From NCBI RefSeq assembly GCF_035083965.1, contig NC_089723.1, positions 1,240,001 through 1,304,000 of the forward strand: a stretch of 64,000 nucleotides of DNA. The letters are read 5' to 3'. The notes beneath the pieces were generated by a model. That model did no database searches and was not told the DNA's origin. It was given only the letters and a program-made list of their open reading frames with translations. The first letter of the stretch is position 1, and each line of letters starts with the position of its first letter. The DNA comes from Branchiostoma lanceolatum (taxonomy: Eukaryota > Chordata > Leptocardii > Amphioxiformes > Branchiostomatidae). Below, in pieces: positions 17,705 through 63,840 of the stretch. The translations under genes were made by a program, and so were the position numbers.

Positions 17705-18127
17705 TTTCTACTGACTTTTCTCACGGCAATGCTTGAGTTGACCTTTAAACTCTCGGGATACAATTAACCTTTGGAATCGCTGCACGTCTCGAGTGGGAGG
17801 GTAGGTGTATCGGTAGTGGACAGGTGTCAAATATTTGAACAATTGACAAACAAACATTGCCCTGTGAAAACATCAATACTGTTTTGAATTTACAAGTACG
17901 TGAGTCCGTGTCAGTATCACCAGGTACAAGGTACCTTTGAAGTATAGACGCGATGTTTTTGTCTTAAGATCGCATTGTCGATGTAAGACCAAATGTCACA
18001 ATAACAACGATTGTGGACCAAAGGCCATAGGTCGAAGAGTTCACAACAACAACTCTTAGGATGGAACAGTTCAGTGAAATTTGGACCGTGCCTCCCCTAC
18101 CGCTGACTGGGCACACTTGTAGGTAAA
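17705..18127. promoter_or_regulatory. Divergent intergenic region, LRR C / paraoxonase
   Basis: 423 bp separate the two start codons, which face away from each other, so both promoters and 5' UTRs must lie here unless upstream exons exist. I saw no convincing TATA box. Assignment as a shared promoter rests on geometry alone. Confidence 0.4.
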
Positions 18128-25809: not shown

Positions 25810-28800
25810 ATGAGTGCTACTGATAACGCAGACGGTATGGAGGACTCGGCGACTTCCGCCTCTGTCGTCACGTCGTTCACGTCGAGCGACGCCGACGACG
25901 AGGGTCTGGGGACGACGACGTACAGCGTCAGCACGTCGACGTCTGACGCGGAGAGCACGGCCAGCAGCTCCACCGTGACCGAGGTGCGACACAAGCGGTA
26001 CGTGGTGACCAGCTCCGCGGGCAGACTCTCGAGCATCCCCGCCGGCGACCCGGTGGGTCCCGAGCCCCCCTCCGCCCCCACGGCCGACATCGTGGCTCTG
26101 AACGCCCGCTTCATGTACTACGTGGACCGGGTGCGCTTCCTGGAGCAGGAGAACCGCACGCTGCGCCACAGTGTGACGGAGTTAGAGATCCGCTCCGTGT
26201 CGCCCGAGATGTACCGCACCTTCCAGCAGGAGATAGACCGCGGCCGGCAGAAGGTGTCCGACCTGAACGCCGAGAGGTCGCATCTACAGGTGGAGGTGCA
26301 GCGCCTGGAACGGGAGATGCGCGCCTTCAACTACAAGTGAGACCTTGTTTACTTGTTTATTTGTTGTTGTTGACAATGTCACAACTGGTCATGCCATATG
26401 TTTTCTTTTGTCGTTTTCAGTTCCTGTTTTTGGTACTCACAGAAAACTATTTGAAGTGTTATTGCCATACGGTTTCTAGAGTCATAACAATACAACGCCA
26501 ATCAACCACAACCACACGTACGACTTTGTTTATTTGTCGAATGTGTTGTACTGTTACGTTACCTGTTATATTTTGAGTGCTCCGTAATGATTCTATGTAA
26601 TCTAGGGACGCTTAAGAATTAGGTCATTGATCCGAGTGTAGTGTGCTGGTAAAATAGATAAATTGAATTGAATTGAATATTGATAATGTAAAAGGATCAT
26701 AACACATGCCTTTTTGTCGCTGAAGTTTTTTTTTTCTGGTACTCGCAGAAAACTATTATAAGTGTGGTTGTCAAACATATGGTAATTTGTATAGTCATAA
26801 CGATACAATACAATCATTGTCAATATTGACCGACGTGGGCTATATATAGAAACACAACACCGGTCTAAGGCCCACCAATTCATTTTATGCTTCTCGTATT
26901 TGAAAAAAAAAGAACTGGATTAAAAGACCAACATAAAAATAGAGTCTGTACCTTTGCACACATATTTTCAGGGAGTAGATATACATGTCCTACCTCCCCC
27001 AGCCCTCTTTTTTCATCCTGACCTTATGCCCAATTTGTGCTATATAGGATTTCTGAGACTAGAAAAATTAACTGGCGTGGTCTAACACCTGTAATTTGCT
27101 ACAACGGAGAAGCCTATGTTACCCCCACCCCCAACCACCCCTCACTGAAACTGCTATCAGTGTTTCGTGAGGGAATATTGTTCTCCTCGAGCTCCCAGCC
27201 CTCTGTTTTCATCCCGACTCTTTGCTGAATTTGTGCTATAGAATTTCCTACAATTGGTGGTGACTAACACTGGTAATATGCTATAGCGGAGGAAGCTATG
27301 CCCACCTCCCCCCCCCCCCCCTCCCTGACATATGTTCTACTATCAGAGTTCGGGTTGGTGTCGTTATCAGTGTATAGGCGTGAGCTGGTACAACCCACCC
27401 TACACAATCATGTTTCACATGTCTGCGGACGGTTTTATCGGCTCAAGTTTCCTGGCACGAGTCATTTAACCCTCAAAACGTCACTGCCCGACTGTCCCGT
27501 ACATGTAATGGTGAACAGCGTTGGCACTATGAGGGTTAATCATTAAAGTTTTGTTTTAACCCAGTTATTGGGTTGTACACATGAATCTGGGTTAGTTTTA
27601 ACCCTCCGAACGTCACTGTTCCGTACATGTACTGGCCCAGCGTTGACACTATGGGGGTTAATAATGAACGTTTTGTTTTAACCCAGCTGTTTTGTTTTAG
27701 TACACATGTATCTGGGTTAGTGCTGTTTGGGTTGTATCAATACAGTATGTGTACAGCCATGCTGTACTGAAGTACCCACATGGCGTGTATGTACATTAGG
27801 GCATAGGCCGGGTCACATTCATTGTGTGATAGATTTATGGTAGCAAATCGGGGGCATTCTTTGGACAGTTGTAGCTGTGTCGTACACAATTCCGCCGTCT
27901 TCTAACATATAATGTATAATGTCGTCGTATGTCCTTGTCAACATTCGCGTCTGTCGATAACCTCGAAAAAGAATGCTACGACAAAACAAATTTGTTCGAC
28001 GTATGTGATAACCCCATAGTAAGGCACCATGGCAGGCTAGGCGGGTAGATGCGGCCAGAGTGACGGCACGCGTTTTCATATTTGTTGGTTGCCGAGGAAT
28101 TCTAACTGCCCCCCTCCCACGATGGTTATCAGGGCGTGTACCCAATACAATGATGAGTCTGCCAAGGTCACATTGAGGCCACCATGTTTGTTGTCGTCAA
28201 TTAGGGACGTACCAAATGTTATTGTGGGGGCGGAGTTCTAGACTTCAGAGTACTAGTATTAAGTTAAGTAGCCGCTTTACTTGCGACAAATTTTAACTTT
28301 TCACTAATTTCTCAAGAAACGTAAAACCTTAAATCAAACTCCTAACCCTGATCCCCATTTCGTTCCTTCCTCCAATAGAAAGGAAACCACGTTCTCTTGT
28401 CCGAGAATAAACCTTCGGCCGAGGACATTAGATAAAATAATTGTCCTTGCTTTGACCAATTAAAATGCAACTTGTCATTCTCGAATTTGCACAGGGAAAA
28501 CTCTAAAGTAACAGTAGGTAAACGTCCTGTTCTTCTGCTGAAAAAAAACACAGAAATAAAACCGTTTCATACGAAACATCACAATTATTAAACAATTGAA
28601 TAGATCCGCAGCAAGTTTTTTTGACATTTTCGGACAGTCAGTCCCCCTTCTGTGATTCAGTGGTTTCTCCCCCCCTGATTGACATGCGCAGCGCGTCGCG
28701 CCGACGTTGCGTGAGTCGCCCCGTCCCAAAGTGGCTCCGATGATTTATCATATCAGTCATATCGGAACATCCGATAGTCTGGTAGTCTGGGACCGCGGCC

Positions 28801-31800
28801 AAACGCAACGGAACCTCCCGGGATCGCTTCCAAACGACACAATAACTGATTGAAAACAAGAGCGACTTATAGGATTTCACTTTCATCTCTGACAAAATGT
28901 CATCCACTTTAACCACTTGTTCAGACATGTCGTAAAACTGGTCTTACATGACGTATCATAAGTATATCAAATAGAACATACTGAAGTCATTTAGGATATG
29001 AAGCGAAAAGCACCGAGGCAAAAGTTTTACGTTTCAAACCCCAAACCCACGCACTCATGAGTCAACATCTGGGCGTTACTTTAGTAGGAACAAACTTAGC
29101 AAACTACACAGGAAATAACACAAAACACCTGGATCGTTTTACAGTGACCAATGTACATCTTACGAACAGTTGCAAGAATGGTACTTATCATTTGTATGCC
29201 TTACGAACAATTGTGTAAGAATAGTACTTGATCATTTGTATGTCTACCTTTTTGGTGGAGCTGTTATGTTAGCAAGGCCCTTTGTAACCAGAGATTCCTG
29301 TCTGAGATGCCCTTTTGTTCCATGTATTGTCCGTGTGAAACTATCGATGGAAACCTTAATCCAAGACCAGGGGGGAGGCTGACTTACAAATCTAGAAAAC
29401 TCTCAACTTTAACCGTAGGGAGATTGCGCAAAAATCCCCCAGTGTAACAGAGACACCTACACATGTAGACATAGATCTTGCAAATCCCCCGTATTATGGG
29501 CATTGATGATATTGCCAACCTTTCACAGTGCATACCGCCCAGATACCGGTATCAATGCGACAATGGCGACTCAAGATGGCAGCTAAGCGTTTTATATTAT
29601 GTTTGGAAGTTAGAAAACAATGATAAATGCATAACTTTTCTGCCTTACGTCGGATAGGCCGAACGCCATTTTATTCCCTCATGGACAGATACACATGAGG
29701 ACTCATTTATTGAGCACTATGTATTTTGGGATGTAAGGCATAATCACAGTAAAGCGACGGTTTCTGTTGTGGTCGGTGTGGAAATTTAATTGCAGAGCGG
29801 GTTGAACAGCCACCTATCCAGGTAATTTACCTGTGTCAGGTGACCTCTGACCCGGCGTGTTGAAAGGTCAATGACCTGTGGGACAGTTACCCCCCGTCAG
29901 ACAACAAGTGTCACAAGTTGCTTGGTTCGTGTTGAATAACTTTCCAACACAATTATCCTTCAAAACGTGATGTGCGTCCTTTCACATCCCACTGCAGTCA
30001 GAGAAGACAAGCAGAAGTCGAGTATCCCCTGCCTTTAAACTTATGTGTACATTGTATACAAGTTACATATATATAACCTCTGTGCACTCTGGATTGTTCT
30101 TTGCCCGATGGCTTGTTAAGTTACAGCTATCCTTCTTGGTATGAATTTTCAAGGACGTTTCTGATATAACTTTCAGCTATGACAATTCTTAATGCGTATC
30201 TCCTCCGATTTGGAATGTCAGAAAAAGACCACCATGGTAGATATCATCTCAAAGTCAAGATGTGAGGAACATGTGAACGCGTTGTGTTGTCGTTTCCTCT
30301 TTCCCTTCTCCATTTTTTTATCGTTACAGGTTCTGATAAGTAGTTGACCCGTAAATACCGCGCAAATTGTCCGCCGCATGCCGCAACATTAGCCTGGGGG
30401 AGGGAGTGAAGTGGTAACAACACAGCAGAATGTCCTCGAATTCATGGCGCCTAATCAAAGTGTCACGGACGATATCATTAAAGACTGGCTTAGATAGTGG
30501 GCAGATATGGCAGAGGATAAATAGGGAACGGCTACAGTCAAACCTGCCCAAGAAGACCACTCAGGGGACTGATAAAATCTGGTCTATGTGCACAGGTGGT
30601 TACTACAGACAAGATTCTTTATTCTTGTGTCAACTTTTGAAGGAAGTATCTCCGGGACAACCAAAAAAGTCCCAGTCCCAAAGGCACCAGTATTTTCCCC
30701 TGGTAAATAAATATAAACCAACTAACAAACAAACAAATAATCATTTACCAGGTGTCCTTATATAGAGGTGGTCATTTCTACAGGTTTGACTGTAGATACG
30801 ATAAGTAGCGTATATAATATAACCGGCATGTATGCTGTAATAGATAAGAAAAGAACAGAACTTCCCCCTAATATATCGTCTTATTTTCTCCCCTTCAGAG
30901 TGTTCGAGGAGAGCAAGAGCCGCAAGGAAGCAGTGAGGGAGCTGGAGAAACTAAAGACGGTGGGAGCAGTAAATTTATTTATTTATTTCTGTTTTCTTTA
31001 TCCAGGGTGGACGCACTCAGTGCTAAACGCACTGCTTTTCAGGCGTGCCCTGCACAACGAATGAATGAATGAATGAGTGAGTGAGTGAGTGAGTGAGTGA
31101 GTGATTTTTTATTGTGCCATGCCAAAGAATTTCCCAGCTCACATTGGCTTATGTAGCACAAAACTTTGAGGTTTTTGTATTACAACACATGTAGGTACGT
31201 AGCTGAATCACACTTCATGTCATAAAAGATACACATATGATGCCCATAGCTTTGTAAAAATGCTATTTAGAAATATACTACAACTAATATTCTTATCATC
31301 TTGAATATTATGTAGATAGAAACAAAATTGACGCTGTCCTAATTGAACCCCAGATACCGAGATACCGCGGCTAATCTTTGCGTTACTTCCACACGCCGCG
31401 CTGTTTATATACCGGTAGTGTTAATGCCGTTTAGGAAAGTCTATGGTTCTTATAAGATCAGAATTAATAGCTCGGCTATTCCTCAATGACGTTACACAGC
31501 CAGATTAGGTCGTGTCGGCTTTAAAGGGAGGGGGTCGGTGGATCCGTGCGGAACAGCTGAAGTCATCTGTCACTAGACCGGGTCCCTCTTTCTACTGATG
31601 CACCTTATATCTCCTCTGTAGTTCACACATAATTCATTGCTAAAGAAGTGTATTTTGTAAGTTGTTTGTGTTTTGTTGTCTTTCGAATCATACTTTACAT
31701 CATAGATCATATTCAATGTGTCTAGTAATGAATCAGACAGATCCTGTTTTGGTCGCTCAGCGATCTCCACCCAGTGGATAGGGGTATTAGGAATCGAACG

Positions 31801-34800
31801 TACCGTCTGTGCCGACTCGGGTTTTGCCAACAAATATTGTGCATTTCACCAAGGTGAATAAATATGGTTTCATGGTGCGGCACATGATATTTGGGTATTT
31901 GCCAGTTCACCCTACAATGATGAACTCTTGTGAAGAACATGCCAATATCACTGTAACTGCACTGTCCTATCATCACTCTACAGAAACACTAGATCGCTAG
32001 TCAGTAATGGTGTAGATAATAGCTTGTCCTTTGGAACAATGGCGGGTGAACTTGAGTATAGACCCAGTCCGACATGTTAGCTGATGTATTATTGAACATA
32101 ATCAATAATTTAGCGGCACCGTTTTTCAAAGCTGTCCCTGGTGCAGAGGCGTCAGGTCATTTCAATGATTCTGGTAACATCGACTCATTTGGGTTTTGGT
32201 TCCACAAGGGAAACATAAGGGCACACCTGGCCTGTTATTCCGTCTGGGTCATTCTTATGACAATTAATGCAATGTACATGGAGCACACTGACAACTTATC
32301 TTTATTTGGTATGTAGCATAATGTAATATCACATGATATCAAGGTATCTGCGTTTGTATATGTAGCTGGTATAACTACCCTTCGGCGTAACACAGCGGCT
32401 TCAGCGTTTGATCGGTGATTCGTTTGTAGAAGATAAGGAAGGACAAATTGAATTCCCGGGGGTGATCTTTAAATTTGTTTAGAGCTTACTTTTGATAAGG
32501 CTACGATCGTGGCTGTACAACATGAGTACGATACGTCAATAACAACCTGACTTTGTTGAGAGGACAACATCTATAAGACCGAATGATCCCTGCAAACGTT
32601 CCATTCACCAAGCGGTCCGACCGGTGGCTGCCTGACCTCGGACGAGCTGACCCGGAACTAATTCTACATTTACCCAACAAACCTCGAGGTCATATCTATT
32701 AGAATGTGTCCCTTTAGAGAAATCAGTGGACCAAGTAACAACAAAGGCCGCCTGTCCAGTCTGTTCTGCGTTTCCAGAATATTTCCTAAACTGTGTCAAT
32801 GAGATGCAAACACACAGAGTCTTACATGTAGTTCGTGGGACAAGGTGCTTATTTGGAAACATCAGTGATATAAGTGGCATTGCCGGCTCTTCTGACACGG
32901 TTACCATGGCGCCCTAGGCCTCTAGCTGCGTAGTCTTTTGGAAGCACAGTTTAGAAGCGCTGTACTCATTTTGAGACCAAACACTGTGAACCCAAAACTT
33001 GAAATATCAGGGTGTGTTGACAGTGTTTATTATGTATGTTTAAGTGTATGTTTGAGGGGCTTAGAACTGCCAAAGAAGAATGTGGTAGACAGATAAGCGT
33101 AACGCTATTTCACATAATGTCCGATTCATCTAAATCACTACTCTGCTTAGCTGGAGTCCCGTGGAAAATGATGATATAAACCGTTTACATATTGTGACCA
33201 TCCACTTTAGTACTGAATGTCCATTGTCTCTCAGAGACCCGGGCTCATGTCTACCGTACTGTCTATCAGAAAGTTTAATTTCCTTCACTGGGATCAAATA
33301 CCCACCAAAGGGTCGCCATGTTTAGTCAGTCTCGCACTTTCATGTGCCTGTTTAGAAATAAGGCTAACACAACATTGCCTCCGTATTAGAAGCGAAAAGC
33401 TGTGACTAACCTCTTTGTGATCTGCAGAAGGTACTTTTCGCTTACGACAAAGATTGTTGATTGCTTGTGAGTTTCTTAATTTCCCATAAAAAGGCCAATC
33501 ATTAAGAACACACACAAAATAAGCTGTGACTAACCTTCCCTTCCCCCCCCCCCCCACACACAGGAGCTGTACGAGACCAAGAAGGCGTACAAGGACGCCC
33601 AGGACAACCTCCGGCTCAAGGCGCAAGAACAGGACTTCAAGACACGCACACACGAACAGGTGAGTAGGAAAGGGCTCATTGTAAAGACACACAGGATCGT
33701 CCAAAATACAAACTATTAGACATAGTTTTGATTTCATTTGAATGATTTGTATAAAAGACATACATATTATAATCGGCGTAGGTAACATCGTCTTTGATTT
33801 AGAACTACAGCCGCACGATTAGGGACTTGTAAGGTGTTTGCGATCACGTAATTGTGACGTATGAAACTATAGTCCACCATGCCGAACGGTGAAACCTGGA
33901 AGGTACGTTTTATAAACGGTTACAATCACGAAGAATGACATTATTATACATATCATCCTCATCATTTTTTGTCGTGTCCGTACTGTGACCAGTTCAGGCC
34001 GTCTAGGTGGGCTTCATGTAGGTCTCGATTGGTGACATTTTGACACAGTTTGCACTCACTGTGAATGTGTCCCATAGTTGTGTTAGGATGAACACATCGA
34101 CATTCACCCGTCCCCATTTCAGGACGATATCTCTAGTTCTACCTGCTCCGCTCCTGGCTCTGTTCAGGGCGGCCCAGTCCCTCCAGGGCAGGTAAGTATC
34201 ATGTTTTAGGGACTCGCAAGGAATCTGAAGAGCTTCATTTTGTGGTAGAGTGTCGGAAGCTTCCCAGCGGTCTAGTCGGTATTTGGCAGAGTCCGCAGGG
34301 TTTGAGTTTTGTACAGAACATCTTCTTATATGCTGGTAGTGGTGTAGAGCACAGTCTTGGTTCTAGCTCTTGCAGAAACATCTGAGTCAAGGAGTGAGAA
34401 CCTCGTCGGATGCTGATGGAAGGTGGTGCAATACTTGCTGTTAGCTGGTATATGGCATACAGGGGTATCTGTTTCAGCGCTCCTGTACGGCAAGAGGCGT
34501 TAAGCTCAGCATCCACTTTTTCAGTGTGGCAGGACTGTTCCCATACCGGAGAGCAGTATTTGGCTGTAGAGTAGCATAACGCTGCAGGCCGGGCGGTAGA
34601 TCGCAGGGATCACAAGGATTGCATTATACACTTGATCATGTATACAGGTCTGACTCTTCCTTCATCGAACAACCAACATGGCGATTGTGACATATATCAG
34701 AGTTGACACCATGAGCGTGCAAGTTCCATTCACGCACCTGCCTCTGATTTTGAATGGGATGCCGGATCCTCGAAGGTTGGTATCCAGGCTGGATCTGTGC

Positions 34801-40800: not shown

Positions 40801-43800
40801 CACCACCGTTACACCCGGAACTTCTTCTACTGTTTCTGTCTCTAATGTGGGTGAAGTTGAAAAGGTGGTGGAATCTGAAGTTGTTGGTCCAAAACGAGTG
40901 CTCTTGCCCTCCGGTGAATACGTAGGGGTGGATTCTACTGGTAAAAGTAGCACTTTCGTTACTACCACTACTGCTGGTAACGGTACCATTGGCAAAGTGA
41001 CTCATGTTGGTGGTACTGCTACCATTGATGAAGTGACCCATGCTGCGGCTGGTACTGGTACCATTGGTGGAGTGACTCCTGTTGCTGGTGGTACTGGTAC
41101 CATTGATGAAGTGACTCCTGTTGCTGGTGGTACTGCTACTATTGGTGAAGATACTCCTGTTGCTGGTGGTACCGCTACCATTGGCGGAGTGACCCCTGTT
41201 GCTGGTGGTACCGTTACCATTGGCGGAGTGACTCCTGTTCCTGGTGGTACTGGTACCATTGGTGGAGTGACTCCTGTTGCTGGTGGTGCCGGTACCATTG
41301 GCGGAGTGACCCCTGTTGCTGGTGGTACCATCGGTGGAGTGACCTCTGTTGCTGGTGGTACTGGTACCATTGGTGAAGGTACTCCTGTTGCCGGTGGTAC
41401 CGTTACCACCGGTGGAGTGATTCATGTTCATGCATGTGATACTGACACCATTGGTGGAGTGACTCCTGTTGCTGGTGGTACCGGTACTATTGGCGGAGTG
41501 ACTCCTGTTGCTGGTGGTACCGGTACCATTGGCGGAGTGACTCCTGTTGCTGGTGGTACCGGTACTATTGGCGGAGTGACTCCTGTTCCTGGTGGTACTG
41601 GTACCATTGGTGGAGGGACTTCTGTTGGTAATGGCACTAGTACCACTGTTGGAGTGACTCCTGGCACTGGTACCACTGCCGTTTTGACTTCTGTAGTCTC
41701 CGGTACTGGTACCATTAGTGGTGTTACTGCAGTTGGTGTTGGTACTGGCACCACTGTTGAATCCGTAACTCTCGTGGAAAAAGTGGGAAATGCGCCTGGG
41801 CTGAGTGGTCCGGAGCGCATAATCACCCCATCTGGAGAATACATAATGTCTTATCCAGATGGAAGTGCTGATGTCATTGACAGTGCCAGTACCACTGTAG
41901 TTTCCGCTAGGGGTGTGGGTGAAACAACAGCTGTAGGATACTCGGCTGTAGCTGATACTAACATGGAAACTGCCATTGCCACCAGTACTACTTACAGTAC
42001 AACTGTAGCATCAGCAACCACCTTGGGGGAAACGGTGAAGGTCTCTGGCTCAGTTAATCCAGAGGAGGTGAGAACCGTGGTGTCCGCTAACTCTGCTGAA
42101 TCCCGTGACGTAATGCCTTCCCCTCACTTTGACGAGCCCGACACTCCCTTCCACAAAGGCGCCCCTGATCTTGCGCTTTCTGCCTCAGCTTCAAACGCCG
42201 TGCAGTCCCACAAAACCCCGCAAGCTGGCACTGTTGTCTCTGGCTCTGCTACACATGGAGGCAACACAGCAACATTTCGCATTGGTGAAAGCTATGGTGT
42301 CGTCACGAACGTCGTGCAGTCCCCCCGAACTCCGCAAGCTGGCACTGCTGTCCCTGGCCCTGCTACCCGTGAAAGCAGCACAGCAACATCTCGCATTGGT
42401 GAAGGCTGTGGTGTCGTCTCGAGCGTGATGACTGCCTCTGGTGAGTACGTAATGGCTGCAGAAGGCAAAGAAGGTGAAACAACAAGCAGCCAGGGCGCAG
42501 CTGTAGGAGGGGGAGCTGCCGCAGACGGAACCAAATTCGCTGTTGCTGCAGTTACAACAGTAGCCGGTGCAGGAGTGCAGCAGGGCTTCAATGGTGGTAA
42601 GCAGGGTACTTATAGTGAGATAGTGACAGGCCATAGCTTGCTTGAAGCACAACAGGTTAGCGACGTGTTGTCCGCTGATGACACTGAACCTACTGTTGAA
42701 TGCATGTCGAGCCTATCAAACGCGCCTGGTGCTACTCAGAGCATAAGCAATACAATCAACGCTCATAAAGTCATGGAAAAGAAACGCGAAACTCCTTTCG
42801 CTGGCGCTGATGACACAACAGCTCCTGGTGGTGACCAAGCAGACGCTGCCGCGGGTGTTACAGACTCGGAGCTTGCGGGTGAGTCCTTCAGCAGCACAGT
42901 CGCTGTTGCTGGTAGCTATGTTGATGTTGACGGCAGCATAAACGCGCCTGTTGTAAGTGCTTTCATTGAGGAATATGTAAGTGGGGAGCCTTCGGTGTTA
43001 CTAGAAGGTGCTTGTTATCAGGGCGTTAGCTTGGACAGGGCTGTCCAAGCGGCCACTGCATGTGTTCATCTCGCTGCTGTGGCTAAAGCTGGGGTCAGCA
43101 GCTTCATTGTCAGGTCTGATAACGAGAACCCCAACAGCGCGCACGGCATTGGCTACATCGCCAGGCCTGTGGACGGGGTACCAGACAGCGCGAACGGCAT
43201 TGGCGACGTCGTCACGCTTTATACAGAGAACCCCGACAGTGCGCACGACATTGGCGACATCGTCAGGCCTGAGGACGAGGTGCCAGACAGCGCGTACGGC
43301 ACTGGCGACATTGTCAGGCCTGGGGACGAGGTACCAGACAGCGCGAACGGCATTGACGACATCGCCAGGCCTGAGGACGAGGTGCCAGACAGCGCGTATG
43401 GCATTGGCGACATCGCCAGGCCTGAGGACGAGGTACCAGACAGTGCGTACGTCACTGGCGACATCGTCAGATCTGATGCAGATAACTTTGACAGCGCGTA
43501 CAGTATTAGCGACATCGTCAGATCGGATGAAGAGACCCCCAACAGCGCTCACGGCATTGGCGACATCGCCAGGCCTGGGGACGAGATACTAGACAGTGCG
43601 TACGGCATTGGCGACATCGCCAGACCTGGGGACGAGGTACTAGACAGTGCGTATGGCATTGGCGACTTCGTCAGGCCTGGGGACGAGGTACCAGACAGCG
43701 CACACGGCATTGACGACTTCGTCAGATCGGATGACGAGGTACCAGACAGCGTGCACGGCATTGGCGACATCGTCAGGCCTGGGAATGAGGTACTAGACAG

Positions 43801-44758
43801 TGCGTACGGTCATGGCGACTTCGTCAGGCCTGGGGACGAGATACCAGACAGCGCGCATGGCATTGGCAACATCGACAGACCTGGGGACGAGATGCCAGAC
43901 TGTGCGTACGGCATTGGCGACATCGTCAGACCTGGGGACGAGGTACCAGACAGCGCGAACGGCATTGGCGACATCGCCAGGCCTGAGGACGAGGTGCCAG
44001 ACAGCGCGTATGGCATTGGCGACATCGCCAGGCCTAAGGACGAGGTACCAGACAGTGCGTACGGCACTGGCGACAACGTCAGATCTGATGCAGATAACTT
44101 TGACAGCGGGCACGGTATTAGCGACATCGTCAGATCGGATGACGAGATACCCGACAGCGCGCACGGTATTAGCGACGACGTTATGCCTGAGGACAAGAAC
44201 TCCGACAGCGCGTACGGCATTGGCGACGTCGTCAGGCTTGAGGACCAGGTACCCGACAGTGCGCACGACATTGGCGACTTCACCAGGCCTGTGGACGAGG
44301 TACCCGACAGCGCGTACGGCATTGGTGACATCGTCAGGCCTGAGGACGAGGTACCAGACAGCGCGCACGGTATTGGTGACGACGAACCATCCACAAAGAT
44401 TAACGATGCCCCAAAGAAAATGGACGTCACAGAACTCACCCAATCTGCACCATCCCCTGCGTCGGGCGTGGCAGTGACTTTATCCGAGGTCTCAACCGAC
44501 GCCACGTCTAGGCCACTCGCCGTAGCTACGTCAACTTACGTAATAGAGACGGAAACTGTTGTCCCAGGGACATTCAAGACTGTTGGCAGCGAAGTGTACA
44601 GTTTAAACGCAATTGTCCCTACCGATGATGAAGACGACCTCATGGAGCGAACAGAGAACAGATTTTCTGATTCAAGCATTGCCTCTGGCATTTCCTATGA
44701 ATTATCACCACCTGATAGTGGGACCATATCTATTGGTAACTCTGAATACGTAAAATAA
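25810..44758 (+). CDS. Same gene, long KASH-less isoform ending in a giant repeat exon
   Basis: If the phase-1 donor at 39338|39339 is not used, exon 9 reads on without interruption to a stop at 44758. The product would be 2,268 aa (6,807 nt), with AATAAA about 130 nt later. The extra 1,800 residues hold GTQGF repeats, an A-x-Q-T-H pentapeptide array, six SGEY motifs, a 13-14-residue TIGGVTPVAGG array and 25 copies of a 17-residue RPEDEVPDSAYGIGDIV unit. The SGEY motifs match those in exon 10, which supports the stretch as genuine coding sequence of this gene. The form keeps rod and KKRK signal but has no membrane anchor. It could be an alternative 3' terminal exon, or part of a still longer transcript through internal phase-1 donors (42440, 42878, about 44730). 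Confidence 0.65.
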
Positions 44759-47700
44759 CTTTGCAAATGCTTGAATGGCGGAGTAAGCTTTCAACAACAG
44801 TACGTAGTTAAGGTACGCTGAAAGTATGGCCATCTTTCCTAAGCTTTTGAAATAATGCTGATATGCAATGCATATGCTTTGGTGTAAATAAATACACGTG
44901 CATTTTAATTCAAGTGGTGTCTTGTCTGTATACGTAGGAAGATATGGTAATAAAGCATATACTAGTGTTTGTACTTTTTCAACATGTCATATGATAAGAA
45001 TGTTAATTGATTTAGACTTTTAACTGTTATTAGAGTTGTGTGGGCATTGAAAAACATGTAAGTAAAAGTTAAATATAGGAACTGTAACAGCAATTTACTT
45101 TTTCTACTTTCTCGCAGAATCCGGAGGACACTCAGGATGCGTCATCTCCGAGAGTTACACCATCGATGAGAGCACGTCACGACGGCAGACGAGGCTCGGT
45201 CAGACGAACGGGACAGCGGGAGGTGGCGGCGACGGTCAGCTGGCGATGGCGGAAACTCGTGCCGTGGACGCCCCCGGGCTTTCTGGCCCGAGACGAATTC
45301 TGACAGCGTCCGGGGAGTACGTCGTGGCGTCCGCCACATCCACGGTCCGTCACAGCGGGGAGGCAGGAGACACGGCAATGGGGATGACATTCGATCAGAC
45401 GACTACGGTACGAGACGAGGACCGACCGGGTCTCTCTGGCCCGAAACGCGTTCTTACCGCATCAGGAGAGTTTGTGATGGAAGACCAGACAACAACTACA
45501 ACAGTCACTACCGAGGACCGCTCCGGTCTCTCTGGCCCGAAGCGCGTACTGACCGCATCAGGAGAGTACGCCGTAGTCACATCATCTTCAGAAGATCAGA
45601 CAACAACTTCAACGGTCACGACCGAGGACCGGCCCGGGCTTTCCGGCCCGAAACGCATCCTTACCTCATCTGGAGAGTACGTAGTGATATCGTCGGAAGA
45701 CCAGACAACAACTACAACGGTCACAACCGAGGACCGGCCTGGGCTTTCTGGCCCGAAACGCGTCCTGACCGCATCCGGAGAGTACGTAGTGATGTCATCG
45801 GAAGACCAGACGACTACAACAACGTCCGTCCAAGCGGAGGACCGCCCTGGTCTCTCTGGCCCGAAGCGCGTCCTGACCGCTTCCGGAGAGTATGTTGTAG
45901 AAGACCAAACAACAACTGCGACCGTCACAACTGAAGACCGTTCCGGTCTTTCCGGCCCGAAACGCGTCTTGACGGCGTCAGGGGAGTACGTGGTGGTGAC
46001 TTCGTCTTCAGAACACCAGACAACGACTACAACCAAAGGCGGCGTGAGCACTGAACAAGTGAAACGCGTGGCTGGCGCTCGTGAGGCCGGGACAGGAGGC
46101 TATCTGGGGACGGATGACGTCGACGGCACCAGAGTGACGTCGGGCGGGTACGTTGCTGAGTCGTCCACTGAACAGCGCGTGCGCGAGGGTGGTGAAGGGA
46201 CCCAGAAGTACTCGATGGGCGTCACGGAGACAACTACAACAAAGAAACGCCGATCGAAAGGAGGCAAGGGCCACGCAGAAGGTTCTACGACATCCTACAG
46301 TTTACACCAGGAAACACAGACGGTTAGTCTTCTCCATCTGTTAATTTTATATGATGAACAGTGCCATGCTCGTCAGAAGACTTTTAAGATTGTGGTTGCC
46401 AGTTATCCCGATTAGTATACTTTAGATTGTATTATTGTTGGGAGGTGGTAAAAAGCAAATGCCTTCTAAAGAAGTTGCGAACATATCACAAATATTTCAC
46501 TTCCAGAAGCACCTGAAGGTAGACGGCAGTCGTGACGAAGTGGATTATAAACAGGACAAGAAAGTGGGCGTGCTTGGGCATGCGCAGTTGGATGTGACAA
46601 ACTGGAGTTCCGTTAGTCCTGTTTTTAACGAAAAAGTGGTACATCTGTCGTGTTTTTTAGCCTCAATTTGGATGGTAGAATAGATGGTATTGATCAAACT
46701 CTAATGGACGTGGATTATCTGTAACTGAACGCCTGTCACTTTTTTTAAACCTCGCGAGTTTTTTCAAATTATCAGTTTTGCCTTTTATAGTTGCCACAAA
46801 TCTAATGTCGTATCTTCATTAGACTGGTGACTTGGAAACACATGGCCGATCGACCGATGACGTATACGTAGCACCTAGTGCCGTAGCAACAACAGCTGTT
46901 GCAACTGCCGATATCAGTGAAAAAGTGGAGGGCAAAATAAGCATGGAAGATAGCGGTGTATCTGTGACAATAAAGACTGACAGGAACGCACATAGGGAGA
47001 ACAGTCAAGAGGAGACCGTCGTCACAACGCACTATCTGGGGGTACAGATTTTCTAGTGGGCGCTTTTTAGGGTCTTTTTTATAAGGCGCTGGGCGACAGA
47101 GGTGCATGTGGACCGTATGGTATGCCCATGCATTCCATCCTAGCATGTTTCTTTCTTTCCCTTTGGAAGAGAGGGCCGCTCCTGTAAGCTGCGAGACTAC
47201 AATGGTGGCAAATGCGCACGGTTATAGAGAGTTTTATTTGCAAGTTCTTGCCCGAGGGCTAATTGCAACATGAAACAATGCATAGAAAAGGTAAACAGAT
47301 AGTGCGAGTTAATAATGCTGACAAGTGGAACAAATGACTATTCTTAGAACTACTACGGAATACAATCTACGCTTTTTGGTTTTGACTTCTTTTTGGAAAC
47401 ACATACACGACGCGGCTGACATTAAATAACCTTCCTCCTTACTTAACTATTATAGAATGAACCCCTGGTGAAAGAGGATTTTGAGGAGAGAGGCATGTCT
47501 GGTCGAGAAAACGCACAGGACAAGACAACAACAGAAGCAACTTCGTTTTCCGGTAACACCCAGATGGGCGTACATATGTGGGGGAAGTTTCCCACCACGC
47601 AAGCACAGACGGTAATTTAATCCCTAATACCGTTCCGCTGAATGGTGAGCTAGGAACGAGGAGCCTCGACCTGGGGTTATGCTGTCATTGGTTCTCAAAT

Positions 47701-50700
47701 TTTCTTCGGCTTTTATGGTGGCACATGGATGAGGGATTGGTGTGGTTGTCTACACCGAGTATCGGTATTGAGGTTTTTCGCACGATTTAGTGTATGACGA
47801 TATTTGAGGCTGGTATACACACTAGTTACACTATTTTTCAAATTTTCTTAGCTCTGATGGTGGCACATGAATGAGGGATTGGTATGATTGTCTACATATC
47901 GGTGAAAATATCGGTATTGAGGTTTTTCGCACGATTTAGTGTATGACGATATTTGAGGCTGGTATACACACTAGTTACACTATTTTTCAAATTTTCTTAG
48001 CTCTGATGGTGGCACATGAATGAGGGATTGGTATGATTGTCTACATATCGGTGAAAATATCGGTATTGAGGTTTTTCGCACGATTTAGTGTATGACGATA
48101 TGTGAGGCTGATAAACACAGTGGTGGCGGCAAGTTTGACCAGTGTAAGGGAAAGGCATACATGACAAAGTGGTGAACGAACCTGCGCATAATTAGTGAGC
48201 GGGAAAAGGCGAGTTTACTCAAGAGACCATGGAAACGTTATTGTGAGTGAACATTTTATTTGTAGTGCAAGAACACCGTTGCTACGGTCGTATCCTCGAC
48301 TTCGTCCACGAAGCCATGTAGGAAAGGGGCTTCAGACACCGTCATCGGGATATCTGAATCCGGCGTCAATGTGACAACATCCGGCTCCAGCACCAGCTCT
48401 TCCGGATCCGGTCTCAGCCCTTCCGAATCCGGTCTCAGCCCTTCCGGATCCGGTCTCATCCCTTCCGGATTCGGTCTCAGCCTTTCCGGATCCGGTCCCA
48501 GCCCTTTCGGATCCGATTCTAGCTCTTCCGGATCCGATTCCAACTCTTCCAGTACTAAACCGCAAATCCTGTCGAAGACCAACAATACTAGCACTCTGCT
48601 GAATTCACAGCTGGCGGTGCATCTTTGGGGTCGACGTTTTTCCATGAAAAGTTCACCATCGGTAAAAATATCAATTGAATACATTGTGCACATGTGGAAT
48701 GGTTGACCATGGTGGTGACCTGTCTTTTGCAGTGTAAGTAGATGCCTGCAGCATACTGGGTTTCCTGTTACACATGCTAAGTTGTAATGGTGGCTCGGTT
48801 CCAGGTTTCTTCTTTGCAATAGTTTGCAAGTTGCAGTAGTGTTTAATTTATTCCAGGATGACTGTGAACCAAATAAATAGTTGTTAAAAGGGTAACACAT
48901 TTTGCAGAAATCTGTGCCTTTCTTCTTGCTTTCGACGACGCCGTGGCTTTCCTTTTACCATAGAGGCAGTTTTAATACCACCGTGTGAGGGAACAAACTG
49001 CACCAAAGTAGCGTACACTTGCTGGCTCCTAGCACGACAGCCTGAACACTTCAATTTTGCTAAATGTGTTTCTTTAATAGAAATTTTACTTTACCTTCAG
49101 GAAAGACAAACCTTGTCGGACATAAAGGCAGAGGGAGCGCCGTTGGGAGGGCCGTCTGGTGGAGACAGTCATTCCGTTACAACCGTAACATCAAGCTCTA
49201 CCTCAACAGAACTCACTAGCGCCGATGGTGCAGAAACACATCCTGTCCACACCACCAGTACATTCTCAACAGACAATACAGCAGAGGTATCACATATATA
49301 CTGACTGGACATTTTTATACATTACTCTGAATTTTGCCTCAGCTTTCAGTAACTCAACCTCTGCCCTAGCCAATCTTCCTTCTATAAGGTCCAACAAGAA
49401 AAAACGTAGCGGTGCAATACAGTGGAGGTGCCACACAAAATACTGATTGAACATTTTATACACTTGCTTGAATTCTCAGAAACTCAACTTCTGCCGTAGC
49501 CAGTCTTCCTTCTATAAGTTCCAACCGGAAAACAAGGTGTCGCTTTGCCTTGGCTTGGGATTTTAAAGAGCATTACTTCAGGTCATGTACCTCACATGAC
49601 ATTTGGTGCGTCTTTGTGGTGCCATGGAAATGATTATGGTTGCAAATAGATGCTTATTGTAATTTGCTTCCTCCTTACAGTTTTACATACATCGTTGTGG
49701 TATCAGACGGAATTGCTGTTTTCAGGTTCAAGAATCGCTGGGTGCCTCTCCCACAAAATCCGATTGGTGGCGCTTTTTCGGGCGACAGTCAACAGTCAAG
49801 ACTACCGGACTGAACTCCCCGTCAGTGCAGTCAGTGACGTCACAACGCGCGTCCGGGTTTCAGCAACTGGAGTCCAACTTTTGGGGCAAGTCCCTCGGAC
49901 GGGAGAGCACGCTGACGGTAAACTTGGTCTGTTTCACTCTTGGGTGCCGCCATGTTGGTTTCTGACGTCATTGGTCGGCCATCTTGTATTAAGGTCTGAT
50001 TGACATGCTTCCCACGTATCCCACTCTCTCGTGGACCCGTATTGCCTATATGATTCCTTGGATTTGTTATGGAAAAGTGGAGCTTTGCTTTGCTGCTTTT
50101 TTTTTAGTTGAAGGAGTAGATGTTAGCCCGCAAGATTCTCATCGCTCCTTCTGGTGGTGATGGTTCCCACATTGCCTCGGTGAATCTGCTGGGAAGTTTC
50201 TGCTGACGCGAAAAGGACCAGGGTTGCAAATGGTGCTACTTCCTTTTATCCCTTAGGAACTTGCCATGGGGAAATGTACTTCACCAAACTTTGGTGATTC
50301 TTAGTTGAATGTATGCTTATCCATACGAATCTTCTTCCATGTCACTCCTATGTCACTTAACAAAACTATTACCTTCAGCAGAGTCCGACCGACACTACTG
50401 AGCCCACAGTCAAGTCGAGCTGGTGGAGCCGTCTGTTGGGCGGGACCAGAGCAGCCGCCGCCTCCACTGCTGCCTCAATACACGCACAACAAACCGGGGC
50501 AAGCATCTACAATGAGGTGTTCATGATCGTTTCACCCCTCAGTTTTCTCCAGTTTTAATGATAGGACTCGCTTGTTGGTAGCTAACTGCTGCTATGTGGT
50601 GCTGAATATCTCTCCGGTGAATAAAGGTACCAGAGACAGCAGGACAACAGCAATACTTCTTTAATCTGCGCTACTGTCAGTCTGGTGAAAAAATAAGAAA

Positions 50701-52230
50701 TGACAATTTACAAGGATAAATTCCAATCTCCCTATATGCTGTCAGTGCCGGTTGCTCACTTAGAGGTCTGTAGATGCCCTTCAAGGAGTATAATAAAGCA
50801 TCTGCTAAGCTTGGGTTTCAGGATTTTCGCAATAGTAAAACCTGGTGCTTGTGGTACATGTAATTGGGAATCCTGTAACACTGTTATTGTTTTGTTTTCA
50901 GACGTGTCATGGATTGTATGCATTTCATACATGGTCATGCACAGCCAAAATGTTACTCTCTACACTTATCGAAGCTCTCTAATTTGCAGATTGACCATTT
51001 CAAGTCGATGACGACGACACCAGTTTTACACAACAGCATTACATTAGCTTACAAATCATCAACTCGTAATGTCTGAGACAAAATTGTTGTTTACAGGATG
51101 AGGATGCTTCTTCTGCAAAATCCGGCTGGTGGCGCTTTTTCAGCCGACAATCGACAACGTCAAGTACGACACAGTCCTCCCAGTCCGCACAGCGCGACGT
51201 GACGTCACACAGCGCGTCCGGGATGACGCAACTAGGATCAAACTCCTGGGGCAAAACCGTCAGGCGGGAAACCACGCTGATGGTAATTTGTTTGGGAACT
51301 TCTGATTCCCTAGCTTGCCGCTTATCCCATTCTTGCACAGGATCTGCAGGGCCACGGCACGTATTCCTCTGCAGGGCGAAGGGCTTCAGGCTGCTGCTGC
51401 TGTTGTTTGTGTGACACTTTCGCGTGGTGCTTTTTTAGGCTGCTGCGCCGATAAACAGCACCCGGTGCATGCTTACACGCTCTTATGCTTGATGACTTGA
51501 GTTTGCACTGGCAAAACTTTTCCGCTTGTGACTGTTGGTGACGCATGTTCTACCGCTCGCAGCGCTTCGCTTGGCACGCATGTTGCAGGGAAAGTTTACT
51601 GTAGTGCCATTCTGCCGTATTGACCATGTATGTCTTCTGTCAACTACTTGCTTGCTTTTCATCAGGTAAACCTATTTCTTCTCTTGATTGCAATTTTAGA
51701 TCTAACTACCTTTTCTATTTCTTGCAGCGTGGCGTTGACGAGACAGACACCTCGACAGTGTCTACTTCAGCTGTAACTTCCACTGAGAGGTAGGTCTCCT
51801 CACGTTAATCAACGGAAGATCTAACGAAACTAAGGTCGGTTTAAGTCCACTAACAGAAATCTTTCAAAAAGCATCATAATCGTTTTTGTGTTTAGTAATT
51901 GTAAAAAAATTATGCTTAAACATTTTTCCACCATTCACTTTCAGTAGCGTTACAAGTGGCAGCAAAACAACGTCGGAGAAAGGGGCCTACCTCGTGGATG
52001 AAAGCGGTAAGGCCTCCCGGACCTGCTTCGCGCGGATTGGCCGCCTGTGCGTCTGGCTGCTCCCGTTGTTGTTCCTCCTCCTCCTCCTCTTCTTCCTCCT
52101 GTCCTCCCTGCTCCCAGGCGGGATGCTGGGGATGTTCCTGGGATGGGAGAGAGGAAGTTGTCACCTGCAGAACAGCTTCCGACAGTCATGGAGGTTCATG
52201 CTCAAGCACAGGAGCCCCCCTCCCATCTGA
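25810..52230 (+). CDS. Intermediate-filament rod protein with C-terminal KASH domain (anchored isoform)
   Basis: Twenty exons: 25810-26336, 30899-30959, 33564-33659, 34891-34956, 35992-36069, 37428-37562, 37797-37898, 38463-38581, 39136-39338, 45118-46322, 46507-46638, 46823-47041, 47456-47611, 48266-48661, 49101-49286, 49726-49917, 50379-50516, 51097-51282, 51728-51789, 51945-52230 (4,545 nt, 1,514 aa; phases all agree). Residues 1-90: Ser/Thr-rich head. About 92-394: filament rod, with coil 1A LNARFMYYVDRVRFLEQEN and rod-end EEYEKLMHMKLDLELAL. 396-434: SP/TP sites and KKRK. 463-864: seven GLSGPKRVLTASGEYVV repeats. 865-1453: Ser/Thr-rich tail with W-containing repeats. 1455-1476: transmembrane helix. 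C-terminus: Cys1492, N-x-F, M-L and terminal PPPI, as in nesprin KASH. No lamin Ig tail or CaaX. Expected in the outer nuclear membrane bound to SUN proteins. AATAAA follows near 52,330. Weakest points are the exon-9 donor and the exon-11 and exon-17 donors. Confidence 0.82.
26985..27725. repeat. Two local tandem duplications in filament-gene intron 1
   Basis: Unit one (CCCAGCCCTCT, TTTCATCC, TTTGTGCTATA, GCTATRGCGGAG words) occurs at about 27,000-27,130 and 27,195-27,310. Unit two, about 130 bp (ACCCTCMRAACGTCACTG, CCGTACATGTA, TGTTTTAACCCAG), occurs at about 27,469-27,600 and 27,600-27,722. Neither is coding. Confidence 0.65.
28140..30520. other. Intron 1 sequence, no further gene seen
   Basis: Part of the 4.5-kb first intron of the filament gene. 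No exon-like segment with family similarity was found on either strand. Confidence 0.5.
30532..30795. mobile_element. MITE-like element with 15-bp inverted ends
   Basis: CTACAGTCAAACCTG at 30532-30546 is matched exactly by CAGGTTTGACTGTAG at 30781-30795. The interior has no coding frame and includes GACCACTCAGGGGACTG. It ends 103 bp before exon 2 of the filament gene. Confidence 0.7.
31059..31104. repeat. GAAT/GAGT tetranucleotide microsatellite
   Basis: Three GAAT/ATGA units pass into about eight GTGA units. Intronic. The same tetramer forms the much longer tract at 38657. Confidence 0.9.
34123..34191 (+). other. Candidate optional exon (linker L12) of the filament gene
   Basis: Bounded by CATTTCAG| and |GTAAGTATC, 69 nt, phase 0 on both sides, open in frame (begins DDISSSTCSAPG, rich in Gly, Pro and Ser). 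It falls exactly where a short-type rod needs the flexible L12 linker between coil 1B (end of exon 3) and coil 2 (exon 4). Including it would give 1,537 aa. Inclusion cannot be shown without transcripts. Confidence 0.45.
34200..34640 (-). mobile_element. Degenerate non-LTR retrotransposon fragment
   Basis: Read on the minus strand, broken frames give VWEQSCHTEKVDAELNAS-like sequence followed by PLYAIYQLT..IAPPSI and RRGSHSLTQMF. This pattern of words is typical of the segment after the reverse-transcriptase core of LINE elements. It is frame-broken and inactive. Confidence 0.5.
35045..35169. mobile_element. Short TIR element, TAYTCTYCAAGCAG family
   Basis: Ends TATTCTTCAAGCAG...GTTTCGGTCG and the inverted CGACCGAAAGC...CTTGGAGAATA form inverted repeats of about 25 bp. 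The outer 14 bp match the ends of the palindromic element at 54995. Intronic; no intact target-site duplication seen. Confidence 0.6.
35992..37760 (+). repeat. Internal duplication of rod exons 5/6 with flanking intron
   Basis: Exon 5 (35992-36069) repeats the second half of exon 6 (37428-37562): both carry VEIDIL and end QxYITGSE...G. The downstream intron starts are also alike (GTAGGAGCC, CCCCCTCCCCA.CATGGCGG). The intron ends before exons 6 and 7 match too, as do their starts (AATKCACAGCTGSAGGCGGA). All are phase 0. Confidence 0.75.
36380..36560 (-). mobile_element. Possible LINE 3' coding remnant
   Basis: On the minus strand the broken frame gives RQTKDTWRKAFQEYLERANI, like the conserved GRPKxTWRRxxxxEL region near the end of many LINE ORF2 proteins. 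It is preceded by stops. Inactive fragment inside an intron. Confidence 0.35.
38236..38362. mobile_element. Hairpin MITE, CAAGCAACTGGATAG family (copy 3)
   Basis: GATACGCCAAAAA...ACCCAAGCAACTGGATAGAA is followed at once by its near inverse TTCCATCCAGTTGCTTGAGT...TTTTTGGCGTATC. Two arms of about 42 bp form a long imperfect hairpin. Intron 7 of the filament gene. Confidence 0.7.
38657..38886. repeat. TGAG tetranucleotide microsatellite, 230 bp
   Basis: Mostly pure (TGAG)n with a few interruptions (TGTAAGTGTG, GCGAGCGAGG). It lies 75 bp past exon 8 of the filament gene. Open frames through it on the minus strand are artefacts of the four-base period. Confidence 0.95.
39136..39338 (+). other. 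Lamin-like flank: SP/TP sites and KKRK signal after the rod
   Basis: Directly after the rod the peptide reads VHDWSPSHHH, STPKGTPIRRR, then HSNKKRKTEH. Lamins have the same order: CDK1-type SP sites, basic residues, and a TKKRKLE nuclear localisation signal. The segment ends at a G|GTGAGG donor whose phase 1 matches the acceptor of exon 10. Confidence 0.7.
39415..40014 (+). repeat. GTQGF and A-x-Q-T-H coding arrays
   Basis: GTQGFGTQGFGTQGLGTQGF lies near 39,420-39,480. About eight or nine pentapeptides of the form A(M/T)QTH (15-bp units) lie at 39,891-40,012. Between them are longer imperfect units with THAG(P/S)A and V(G)VSGVGHA. Frame is kept throughout. Confidence 0.85.
40235..42461 (+). 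repeat. Six SGEYV motifs in the giant exon
   Basis: Copies: LVLLPSGEYVVVDS (about 40,235), GPERLLLPSGEYVVVNS (40,540), GPKRVLLPSGEYVVADS (40,714), GPKRVLLPSGEYVGVDS (40,881), GLSGPERIITPSGEYIM (41,797), VMTASGEYVMAAE (42,426). The core is G-P-(K/E)-R-x-L-x-x-S-G-E-Y-V, shared with exon 10. Confidence 0.85.
40975..41640 (+). repeat. TIGGVTPVAGGTG coding minisatellite
   Basis: About 17 tandem units of 13-14 residues (39-42 bp), consensus GTGTIGGVTPVAGG, with unit variants EVTHAA, EDTPVA and a shortened unit. Several reverse-strand frames are also open here because of the repeat period. Confidence 0.9.
43120..44390 (+). repeat. 25-copy 17-residue coding repeat (51-bp unit)
   Basis: Consensus RPEDEVPDSAYGIGDIV, strongly acidic, 25 units. 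Units 4-8 and 16-20 share the same rare variants (DSANGI, SDADNFDS, then RSD), so a block of at least five units was copied 12 units (612 bp) downstream. There are no spacers and the frame never breaks. Confidence 0.92.
44759..45117 (+). terminator. 3' UTR-like stretch with AATAAA after the long isoform
   Basis: After the TAA at 44758 there is AAATAAATAC near 44,886 and another AATAAAG near 44,950. Either could end the KASH-less transcript. In the KASH transcript this stretch is intron, ending at CTTTCTCGCAG|. Confidence 0.5.
45270..46035 (+). repeat. Seven-copy GLSGPKRVLTASGEYVV repeat, exon 10
   Basis: Seven tandem units of 30-40 residues, each with (G)LSGP(K/R)R(V/I)LT(A/S)SGEYV, an acidic EDQTTTTTV stretch and a TEDRP/S joiner. 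DNA copies are near-identical, pointing to recent unit turnover. Function unknown; the units present basic (KR) and acidic/Thr-rich faces in turn. Confidence 0.92.
47688..48110. repeat. 149-bp tandem repeat, about 2.7 copies
   Basis: GCACGATTTAGTGTATGACG recurs at 47780, 47929 and 48078, exactly 149 bp apart. The two later units are near-identical and the first is diverged and partial. It lies in the intron between exons 13 and 14 of the filament gene. Confidence 0.9.
48385..48550 (+). repeat. SGSGLSP heptapeptide array in exon 14
   Basis: About eight 21-bp units coding S-G-S-G-L-S-P with variants (SESGLSP, SGFGLSL, FGSDSSS). This is a flexible, Ser-rich linker. A 214-codon frame is open on the other strand across the repeat, which I treat as a shadow. 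Confidence 0.85.
49275..49540 (+). repeat. Tandem duplication covering the exon-15 donor
   Basis: About 147-bp unit. The first copy has AATACAGCAGAG|GTATCACA (the exon-15 end) and the second has AATACAGTGGAGGTGCCACA. Both continue with CTGAYTGRACATTTT and ATCTTCCTTCTATAAG. The second copy is a relic of exon 15's 3' end. Confidence 0.75.
51945..52230 (+). other. KASH-encoding terminal exon
   Basis: Codes SGSKTTSEKGAYLVDESG, then CFARIGRL, a Leu/Phe transmembrane segment (CVWLLPLLFLLLLLFFLL), a 15-residue luminal spacer, and a 23-residue tail starting at Cys and ending MLKHRSPPPI. Vertebrate KASH tails have Cys, N-x-F, a Ser, M-L-R and PPPT/PPPL at the same spacing within one residue. The Cys is positioned to bond with a SUN Cys, and the PPPI end to enter the SUN pocket. 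Confidence 0.88.
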
Positions 52231-57300: not shown

Positions 57301-57914
57301 CAAATATGTGGCTATGTTTGACACGACTAACATTCTGCAATTTCTTAGCAGCACTCATTGTAAAACCACCTTTCCTCCAGTTGTGGTTTGATATTCTCAT
57401 GCGAAAGCCGATAATGTTGCCGTTTTCTGCAAAAGGTAGACTGAAAACAGGGAATTTTCTCTTGCCTTTAGCTTTTGTAGGACACGTTTTCAACATAAAG
57501 TCACCCGACGGCACGTACAAGTACACATTTGAGGAAGCTCGCCAGGCATGCGCAGAGAGGGGAGCCGTCCTGGCGTCCCTTACCCAGATGCTCCAGGATC
57601 CGCCGAACACAAATTGGGTGTGCAGATGCGGATGGTTGTCGGACGGCAGAGCTGGCATAGCCATGCACACCGCCAGGTAAGTGTGCGAGCAAGGCAGCGC
57701 AGTCTTTAATACGTACCTACGATCAAATTTTTAGTAATTTGACTGAAGTCCATTGGGACACAGCACAGACCTTTTACAGAACTATGTCCACTTTGCTTAC
57801 AATTCATTTTTTTTAAGGTCGGACTGTCTGAATAGGACAGGATTCTACCAGTGCACCAGCCGCTTGCTGTGGAACGCCTGGTGCTTCTGCCCCGCCGGCA
57901 GTCGTCACGACTGA
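54392..57914 (+). CDS. Type II membrane protein with coiled-coil stalk and C-terminal Link domain
   Basis: Exons: 54392-54569, (54921-55193, interrupted), 55721-55884, 56087-57209, 57481-57676, 57818-57914. Skipping exon 2 keeps frame (phase 1 to phase 1) and gives 585 aa. The short cytosolic N-terminus is Arg-rich. It is followed by one hydrophobic helix (about residues 84-103, TTVVIVTLMTSLALILV) with positive charges on the N-side, so N-in, C-out. Residues 115-488 are a long coiled coil of imperfect units such as RVSTLEERLEN, probably a trimer or dimer stalk. Residues 489-584 fit a Link (hyaluronan-binding) module: VFNIKSPDGTYKYTFEEARQ, CRCGWLSDG, a middle Cys pair and a final WCFCP. It would present a glycosaminoglycan-binding head at the cell surface. 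AATAAATAAA lies near 58,222. Hyaluronan as ligand is inferred from the family. Confidence 0.78.
54660..54862. mobile_element. MITE, CAAGCAACTGGATAG family (copy 4, both ends)
   Basis: The left end has CAAGCAACTGGACAG and GGTCGGACGTTTCAGATA; the right end has the inverse, GAAACGTCTGACCGTTTC and CTATCCAGTTGCTTGAGTAA. It is the most complete copy in the window, in intron 1 of the Link-domain gene. Confidence 0.7.
54995..55151. mobile_element. Perfect palindromic foldback element inserted in an exon
   Basis: 157 bp with 78-bp arms that are exact reverse complements around one central T (55073). It is flanked on both sides by GGGTGCAC (54987-54994 and 55152-55159), an 8-bp target-site duplication as in hAT-type transposition. 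Ends are TACTCTCCAAGCAG, as in the element at 35045. It adds an in-frame TGA to exon 2 of the Link-domain gene. The perfect arms imply a recent insertion, gene conversion between arms, or an assembly foldback; the target-site duplication argues for real insertion. Confidence 0.88.
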
Positions 57915-63579: not shown

Positions 63580-63840
63580 GCTAGTAAATATTAAAACCTG
63601 TTCAAACTTACCGTTATTTTGGCAACCAATAAATGTTTATGATTTATCATGTGCCTTTAGTATTTTACATATTTGATTCATGGAACTGGGTGATTAAAAA
63701 TCTTAAACGGCGGGGGATGATAAGTTGATAATTTTGCAAAACGCAACTACTCAAAAACAAAATACGATACTTCAATCAGATTTGTATTAGAGATTTTGAG
63801 GAAATAATGTCTTCCCCTTTAATGCTTCGGTCACAATTGG

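Follow-up and report, generated by a model that had tools for sequence, protein, structure and literature searches.

A Branchiostoma lanceolatum gene model that joins an intermediate-filament rod and a KASH domain

A single spliced gene model of the lancelet Branchiostoma lanceolatum contained both an intermediate-filament (IF) rod and a KASH domain, with the exons between them joined in phase. The model lies in a stretch of 64,000 nucleotides of contig NC_089723.1, here referred to as the window. This composition is best read as a new KASH-protein architecture, namely a one-piece link from filaments to SUN. We assign a probability of about 0.68 to the proposal that one gene encodes a tail-anchored IF-rod protein which links filaments to SUN within one molecule. 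There was good support for the claim of the initial annotation that rod and KASH domain belong to the same gene: a B. lanceolatum protein of 2,627 aa (here named P0001) is annotated with this arrangement, and Filament and KASH were both precomputed for it. P0001 is already public, as an entry with the name "GFAP".

The chain of 20 exons that had been reported to join in phase over 26 kb was rebuilt from the sequence (25,810–52,230). All borders followed the GT-AG rule, the exons were in phase with 0 internal stops, and the chain coded for 3,313 aa, with its start codon (ATG) at 25,810 and a stop codon that ends at 52,230. The reported exons were thus recovered, but the chain was incomplete. 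A splice-site scan revealed one overlooked exon of 69 bp (34,123–34,191) with good splice sites and phase 0-0, coding for DDISSSTCSAPGSVQGGPVPPGQ. Its residues were found at the corresponding place in P0001, behind those of exon 3. The corrected model consists of 21 exons and codes for 3,336 aa (Table 1). Downstream of exon 21 an AATAAA was present at 52331.

Further open frames surrounded the gene in the window. Upstream, an arylesterase-domain frame was located on the plus strand (19755–20138), and three long open frames with leucine-rich repeats were found on the minus strand (11028–17707). Downstream, an extracellular Link-domain frame (57291–57677, plus) adjoined a coiled-coil frame with RVSTLEERLEN repeats (56045–57214, plus). 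A 1089-aa open frame on the minus strand (60370–63636) carried many TPR repeats, including a match to the Nephrocystin-3 TPR profile, as well as a DUF294 nucleotidyltransferase match.

Table 1. Exons of the corrected model and the stop codon behind exon 10 (positions in the window)
Feature	Position	Strand	Support
Exon 1: start codon, Ser/Thr-rich head (residues 1–92), coil 1A (LNARFMYYVDRVRFLEQEN), first part of coil 1B	25810..26336	+	173/176 identical in P0001
Exon 2, 61 bp: coil 1B	30899..30959	+	21/21 identical in P0001
Exon 3, 96 bp: last part of coil 1B	33564..33659	+	32/32 identical in P0001
Exon 4: Gly/Pro/Ser-rich, L12-like linker	34123..34191	+	splice-site scan; 23/23 identical in P0001
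Exon 5: start of coil 2	34891..34956	+	22/22 identical in P0001
Exon 6: coil 2, VEIDIL...YITGSEFEG unit	35992..36069	+	26/26 identical in P0001
Exon 7: coil 2, second VEIDIL...YITGSEG unit	37428..37562	+	43/45 identical in P0001
Exon 8: coil 2	37797..37898	+	34/34 identical in P0001
Exon 9: divergent rod end (EYEKLMHMKLDLELALKHHGLDY)	38463..38581	+	40/40 identical in P0001
Exon 10, 5.6 kb, 1868 residues: basic stretch (KKRK) followed by a long tail of Ser/Thr/Gly-rich repeats	39136..44735	+	1049/1320 aligned residues identical in P0001
Stop codon reached if exon 10 is unspliced; possible end of a KASH-less isoform	44756-44758	+	weak
Exon 11: SGPKRVLTASGEYVV repeats, family common with exon 10	45118..46322	+	365/396 aligned residues identical
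Exons 12–20: KASH-proximal tail, repeated WW and WGK/WGR motifs	46507..51789	+	
Exons 12–16	46507-46638, 46823-47041, 47456-47611, 48266-48661, 49101-49286	+	
Exons 17–20	49726-49917, 50379-50516, 51097-51282, 51728-51789	+	
Exon 21: transmembrane helix, 30-residue KASH lumenal peptide ending PPPI, stop codon	51945..52230	+	92/95 identical in P0001

The rod was recognized by the Pfam family Filament at residues 93–380 of the 20-exon model with 82.2 bits (E 6.7e-23); the Pfam cut-offs are 40 bits for Filament and 23 bits for KASH. With the linker exon the Filament match was 73.5 bits, in two stretches, and a rescan of P0001 gave 63.5 bits for Filament and 27.0 bits for KASH. Filament was consequently above the cut-off in 3/3 scans. 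The closest solved chain to the rod was vimentin (E 1.5e-8, 37.7 bits), followed by lamin A/C, and inclusion of the linker exon lowered the vimentin match to 30.4 bits. Since the second queries were also trimmed, the linker exon may not be the sole cause of the lower Filament and vimentin scores. Neither in the rod piece nor in the KASH piece was any other Pfam family above its own cut-off.

The segments of the rod were arranged in the order coil 1A, L1, coil 1B of vimentin length, L12 and coil 2. According to our reading of the alignment, exons 2 and 3 end at vimentin residues 208 and 240. Their sizes, 61 and 96 bp, also occur among the exons of vimentin-type genes. The location of exon 4 right after the position of vimentin residue 240, together with its Gly/Pro/Ser content, suggests that this exon is the L12 linker. 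Heptad bias was higher than in shuffled sequences in 5/5 coil segments of 1A, 1B and 2 (p 0.0005–0.02, uncorrected and for segments chosen by eye) and was not above shuffles in L12 (p 0.13). The initially annotated coil 1A in exon 1 carried the helix-initiation motif, in which 13 of 19 residues were identical to vimentin.

At its other end the rod was less typical. The helix-termination motif of IF proteins is TYRKLLEGEE. An IF-type rod end had been proposed for the gene, and half of it was found: EYEKLMHMKLDLE aligned to EYQDLLNVKMALD of vimentin, but neither LLEGE nor LEGEE was present in the whole protein and the rod end reads KHHGLDY. Coil 2 matched vimentin with just 8.2 bits and was broken up by two VEIDIL...YITGSE units. 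The common unit of exons 6 and 7 (35992–37562) represents a duplication inside coil 2.

The missing LLEGEE, the two interruptions and the low coil 2 score would all be expected if the rod were a relic whose coiled coil serves for dimerisation only. In that case the protein would be a KASH anchor for some other partner and not an IF subunit. We consider this rather unlikely, given the helix-initiation motif and the Filament matches in all scans. The rod was identical to that of P0001 in 313 of 315 residues, which also speaks against a relic, although such an identity is equally compatible with one. The initial annotation regarded the protein itself as a filament subunit. The rod layout of chordate cytoplasmic IF proteins and the initiation motif agree with this, whereas the absent termination hallmark and the remodelled coil 2 do not. 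Because the LLEGEE hallmark is missing, we infer filament assembly with caution and refer to the rod protein as a putative filament subunit. A search with the rod only, in a protein database of 5.8 billion sequences, returned 0 relatives at E 0.001 or better among 8000 candidates scored. Probably a single rod scores too low in such a huge database, as even vimentin reached just the score given above.

Between rod and KASH domain a tail of 2,847 residues was found (418–3264), of which 25% were Ser or Thr. In a composition count, residue types that favour disorder accounted for 73% of the tail vs 63% of the rod. The fully stretched tail would arithmetically measure ~1 micrometre. Tandem arrays were located at 40,971–41,663 (39-bp units), at 43,134–44,380 (51/102/153-bp units) and within 45,416–45,995 (105-bp units). 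No Pfam family was found in exon 10 at E up to 1, and nothing passed the cut-off in residues 2562–3241, which cover the end of exon 11 to exon 20. In the KASH-proximal part, a WG[K/R] motif was repeated in exons 14, 15, 17 and 19, and a WW motif was present in exons 17, 18 and 19, in a looser form in exon 18. The exons with WW and WGK/WGR motifs within 47456–51282 look like repeated exon duplications. When compared at the protein level, exons 15, 16 and 18 had no counterpart in P0001. Exons 15 and 18 carry the WW or WG[K/R] motifs and are for this reason probably real but variable; exon 16 is without such support.

The tail also contained two basic stretches that were conserved in P0001, a KKRK behind the rod and a KKRR encoded by exon 11. 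These could be nuclear-import signals, and a location at the inner nuclear membrane is conceivable on this basis. The protein would in this case be a lamina-like filament protein which faces the nucleoplasm and has a KASH peptide that binds SUN located in its own membrane. Such an arrangement appears highly improbable to us, since coil 1B is of vimentin length (the end of exon 3 corresponds to vimentin residue 240), scans of P0001 and exon 10 gave no lamin-tail domain, and the terminus is PPPI, not CaaX. A lamin origin was rejected on the same short coil 1B and the same lack of a lamin tail in P0001 and exon 10. What the lancelet protein shares with lamins is the IF family and, putatively, the association with the nuclear envelope; it differs from them in the short coil 1B, the lamin-tail domain, of which none was found, and the missing CaaX.

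The last 62 residues of the protein matched the Pfam family KASH with 34.4 bits (E 2.7e-8), and the 34-aa lumenal peptide alone scored 24.0 bits, narrowly above the cut-off. The KASH match disappeared in 3/3 decoys that had an intact helix and a shuffled lumen, while it stayed with 33.2 bits in the one decoy with shuffled helix and kept lumen. A match caused by the hydrophobic helix alone was rejected by these decoys, which place the KASH signal in the lumenal peptide. Compared with solved structures at E up to 10, the lumenal peptide had four matches and all of these were KASH peptides, namely nesprin-3 (the best, E 0.001), nesprin-1 (two) and nesprin-2. For the whole last exon, seven matches were obtained at E up to 10. 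Three were nesprins (best E 0.009) and four were taste-receptor chains that aligned along the helix.

The alignment with the nesprin-3 chain 6wme was free of gaps and showed 11 identities in 23 positions from SC to PPP. The lumenal Cys aligned with the Cys of the nesprin-3, -1 and -2 peptides. Its previously given position of -23 is correct if the last residue is counted as -1, but becomes -22 if the last residue is 0. The transmembrane helix and terminal PPPI that had been described for the last exon were both found again: hydrophobicity was highest in a stretch immediately ahead of the KASH lumen (19-aa mean 3.06 at 3276), and the protein ends with PPPI. One further hydrophobic stretch (769–791) reached 1.72, just above the threshold of 1.6. 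According to structural work, the triple-proline end sits between SUN protomers, and the Cys of KASH1 forms a disulphide with SUN2 (accessible text of PMC7800377). SUN binding and a localisation at the nuclear envelope are predictions from sequence for the lancelet protein. Together, the PPP end, the matching Cys and the rod point to a direct link from filament to SUN.

P0001 was the sole relative returned by a search with the full model among 7,999 candidates scored, and a search with the tail again returned only P0001, among 1719 candidates scored. Candidates were restricted by length and, in the searches with the full model and with the rod, also in number, so that a sole relative does not exclude others. 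The head was identical to P0001 in 89 of 92 residues, and over the last 76 residues of the KASH exon 75 were identical. In the middle region (461–3180), 1575 of 1923 aligned residues were identical and 797 of 2720 residues were unaligned. Both ends were closer to P0001 than the middle (Fisher p 2e-22 for the rod and 2e-5 for the KASH exon, with residues taken as independent).

The stop codon reached by an unspliced exon 10 is followed by AATAAA at 44887 and 44949, the first of them with a GT-rich stretch behind it. Such a composition would be compatible with two adjacent genes, an IF gene with its end near 44,758 and a separate KASH gene downstream of it, which were wrongly joined by prediction in both models. 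If the join were false, the finding would not stand. However, AATAAA is common here and occurs 14 times on the plus strand in 25–55 kb. P0001 spans the same junction: it passes over this intron, in the same phase, to the corresponding residues of exon 11 and fits a donor after 44600. An alternative exon 10 donor at this position would give the junction found in P0001. Additionally, repeats of the family GPKRVL..SGEYV flank the exon 10/11 intron with 4 strict copies in each exon, and the in-phase exons run on to KASH. The B. lanceolatum annotation used spliced alignments of B. floridae proteins and prediction but also drew on RNA-seq assemblies (accessible text of PMC9673378), and P0001 presumably derives from this annotation. 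Taken together, we regard two wrongly joined genes as improbable.

The stop codon and the AATAAA signals after exon 10 could also mean that the gene has two products, of which one stops at 44,758 as a soluble IF-like protein and the other is the complete form with KASH. Splicing or polyadenylation would then regulate the nuclear anchoring. Nesprins make many isoforms, as indicated by the titles of papers, but AATAAA alone is weak evidence at the frequency given above, and P0001 as the sole relative found is the full form. We would put two products at a little less than even odds. Two genes seem less likely to us than an isoform without KASH.

Among known proteins nesprin-3 (SYNE3) resembles the lancelet protein by a KASH tail of equal length, which aligns without gaps in 6wme, and by its link between nucleus and intermediate filaments. 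In vertebrates nesprin-3 binds SUN by its KASH peptide (accessible text of PMC7800377). It differs in its spectrin repeats and in reaching filaments indirectly via plectin (according to the accessible text of PMC6886330), whereas the lancelet protein has an IF rod. No spectrin family was found in the first 442 residues of the 20-exon model, in its residues 2562–3241 from about the last third of exon 11 to exon 20, in exon 10 and in the whole of P0001. With the type III proteins vimentin and GFAP the lancelet protein shares the rod layout, the helix-initiation motif, the length of coil 1B and the exons of 61 and 96 bp. Unlike these, it lacks the LLEGEE end and has a giant repetitive tail and a KASH membrane anchor. 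Nestin and synemin are similar to the lancelet protein in that their IF rod precedes a very long tail of low complexity, which includes one giant exon. We know of no transmembrane KASH end in nestin or synemin. A chordate cytoplasmic IF gene may have captured a nesprin-3-like KASH exon, which would make a filament subunit the SUN ligand and give lancelets a one-piece LINC link, with the choice between splicing and poly(A) after exon 10 switching between free and nucleus-anchored forms; we put this forward only tentatively.

As a tail-anchored protein of the outer nuclear membrane, the product of the gene could work as follows. The N-terminal rod would pair with or dock onto cytoplasmic intermediate filaments, and the low-complexity tail of roughly 2,850 residues would serve as a long flexible tether. 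The C-terminal helix is predicted to insert in the outer nuclear membrane, so placing the KASH peptide in the perinuclear space, where it would bind SUN trimers. In this way a single molecule might do the job of nesprin-3, plectin and intermediate filament in vertebrates. IF rods pair as dimers, and SUN is a trimer. It was suggested that the two SUN trimers of a 6:6 complex are bridged by a KASH dimer (accessible text of PMC7800377), which would accommodate a dimeric rod. The missing LLEGEE, the 8.2 bits of coil 2, the lower Filament and vimentin scores with the linker exon and the weak best solved match of the lumen (E 0.001) speak against this mechanism.

The initial annotation knew of no described IF-KASH fusion, and our literature search is in agreement with this. 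No description was found among the matches listed for KASH and filaments, for KASH or nesprin in lancelets and for lancelet filament proteins, nor in the accessible parts of PMC5630835, PMC9035595, PMC6886330, PMC7800377, PMC4448529 and PMC9673378. Furthermore, the search gave no paper joining KASH domain, intermediate filament and amphioxus.

Nesprin-1 and -2 reach actin, nesprin-4 reaches microtubules and nesprin-3 reaches intermediate filaments via plectin (accessible parts of PMC9035595 and PMC6886330). A natural fusion of filament and KASH, if true, would mean that an adaptor of the plectin type is dispensable. The combination of rod, tether and KASH would then offer a simple construct with which the transmission of filament forces to the nucleus could be studied, and the fusion would mark a gene-fusion event so far found only in lancelets.
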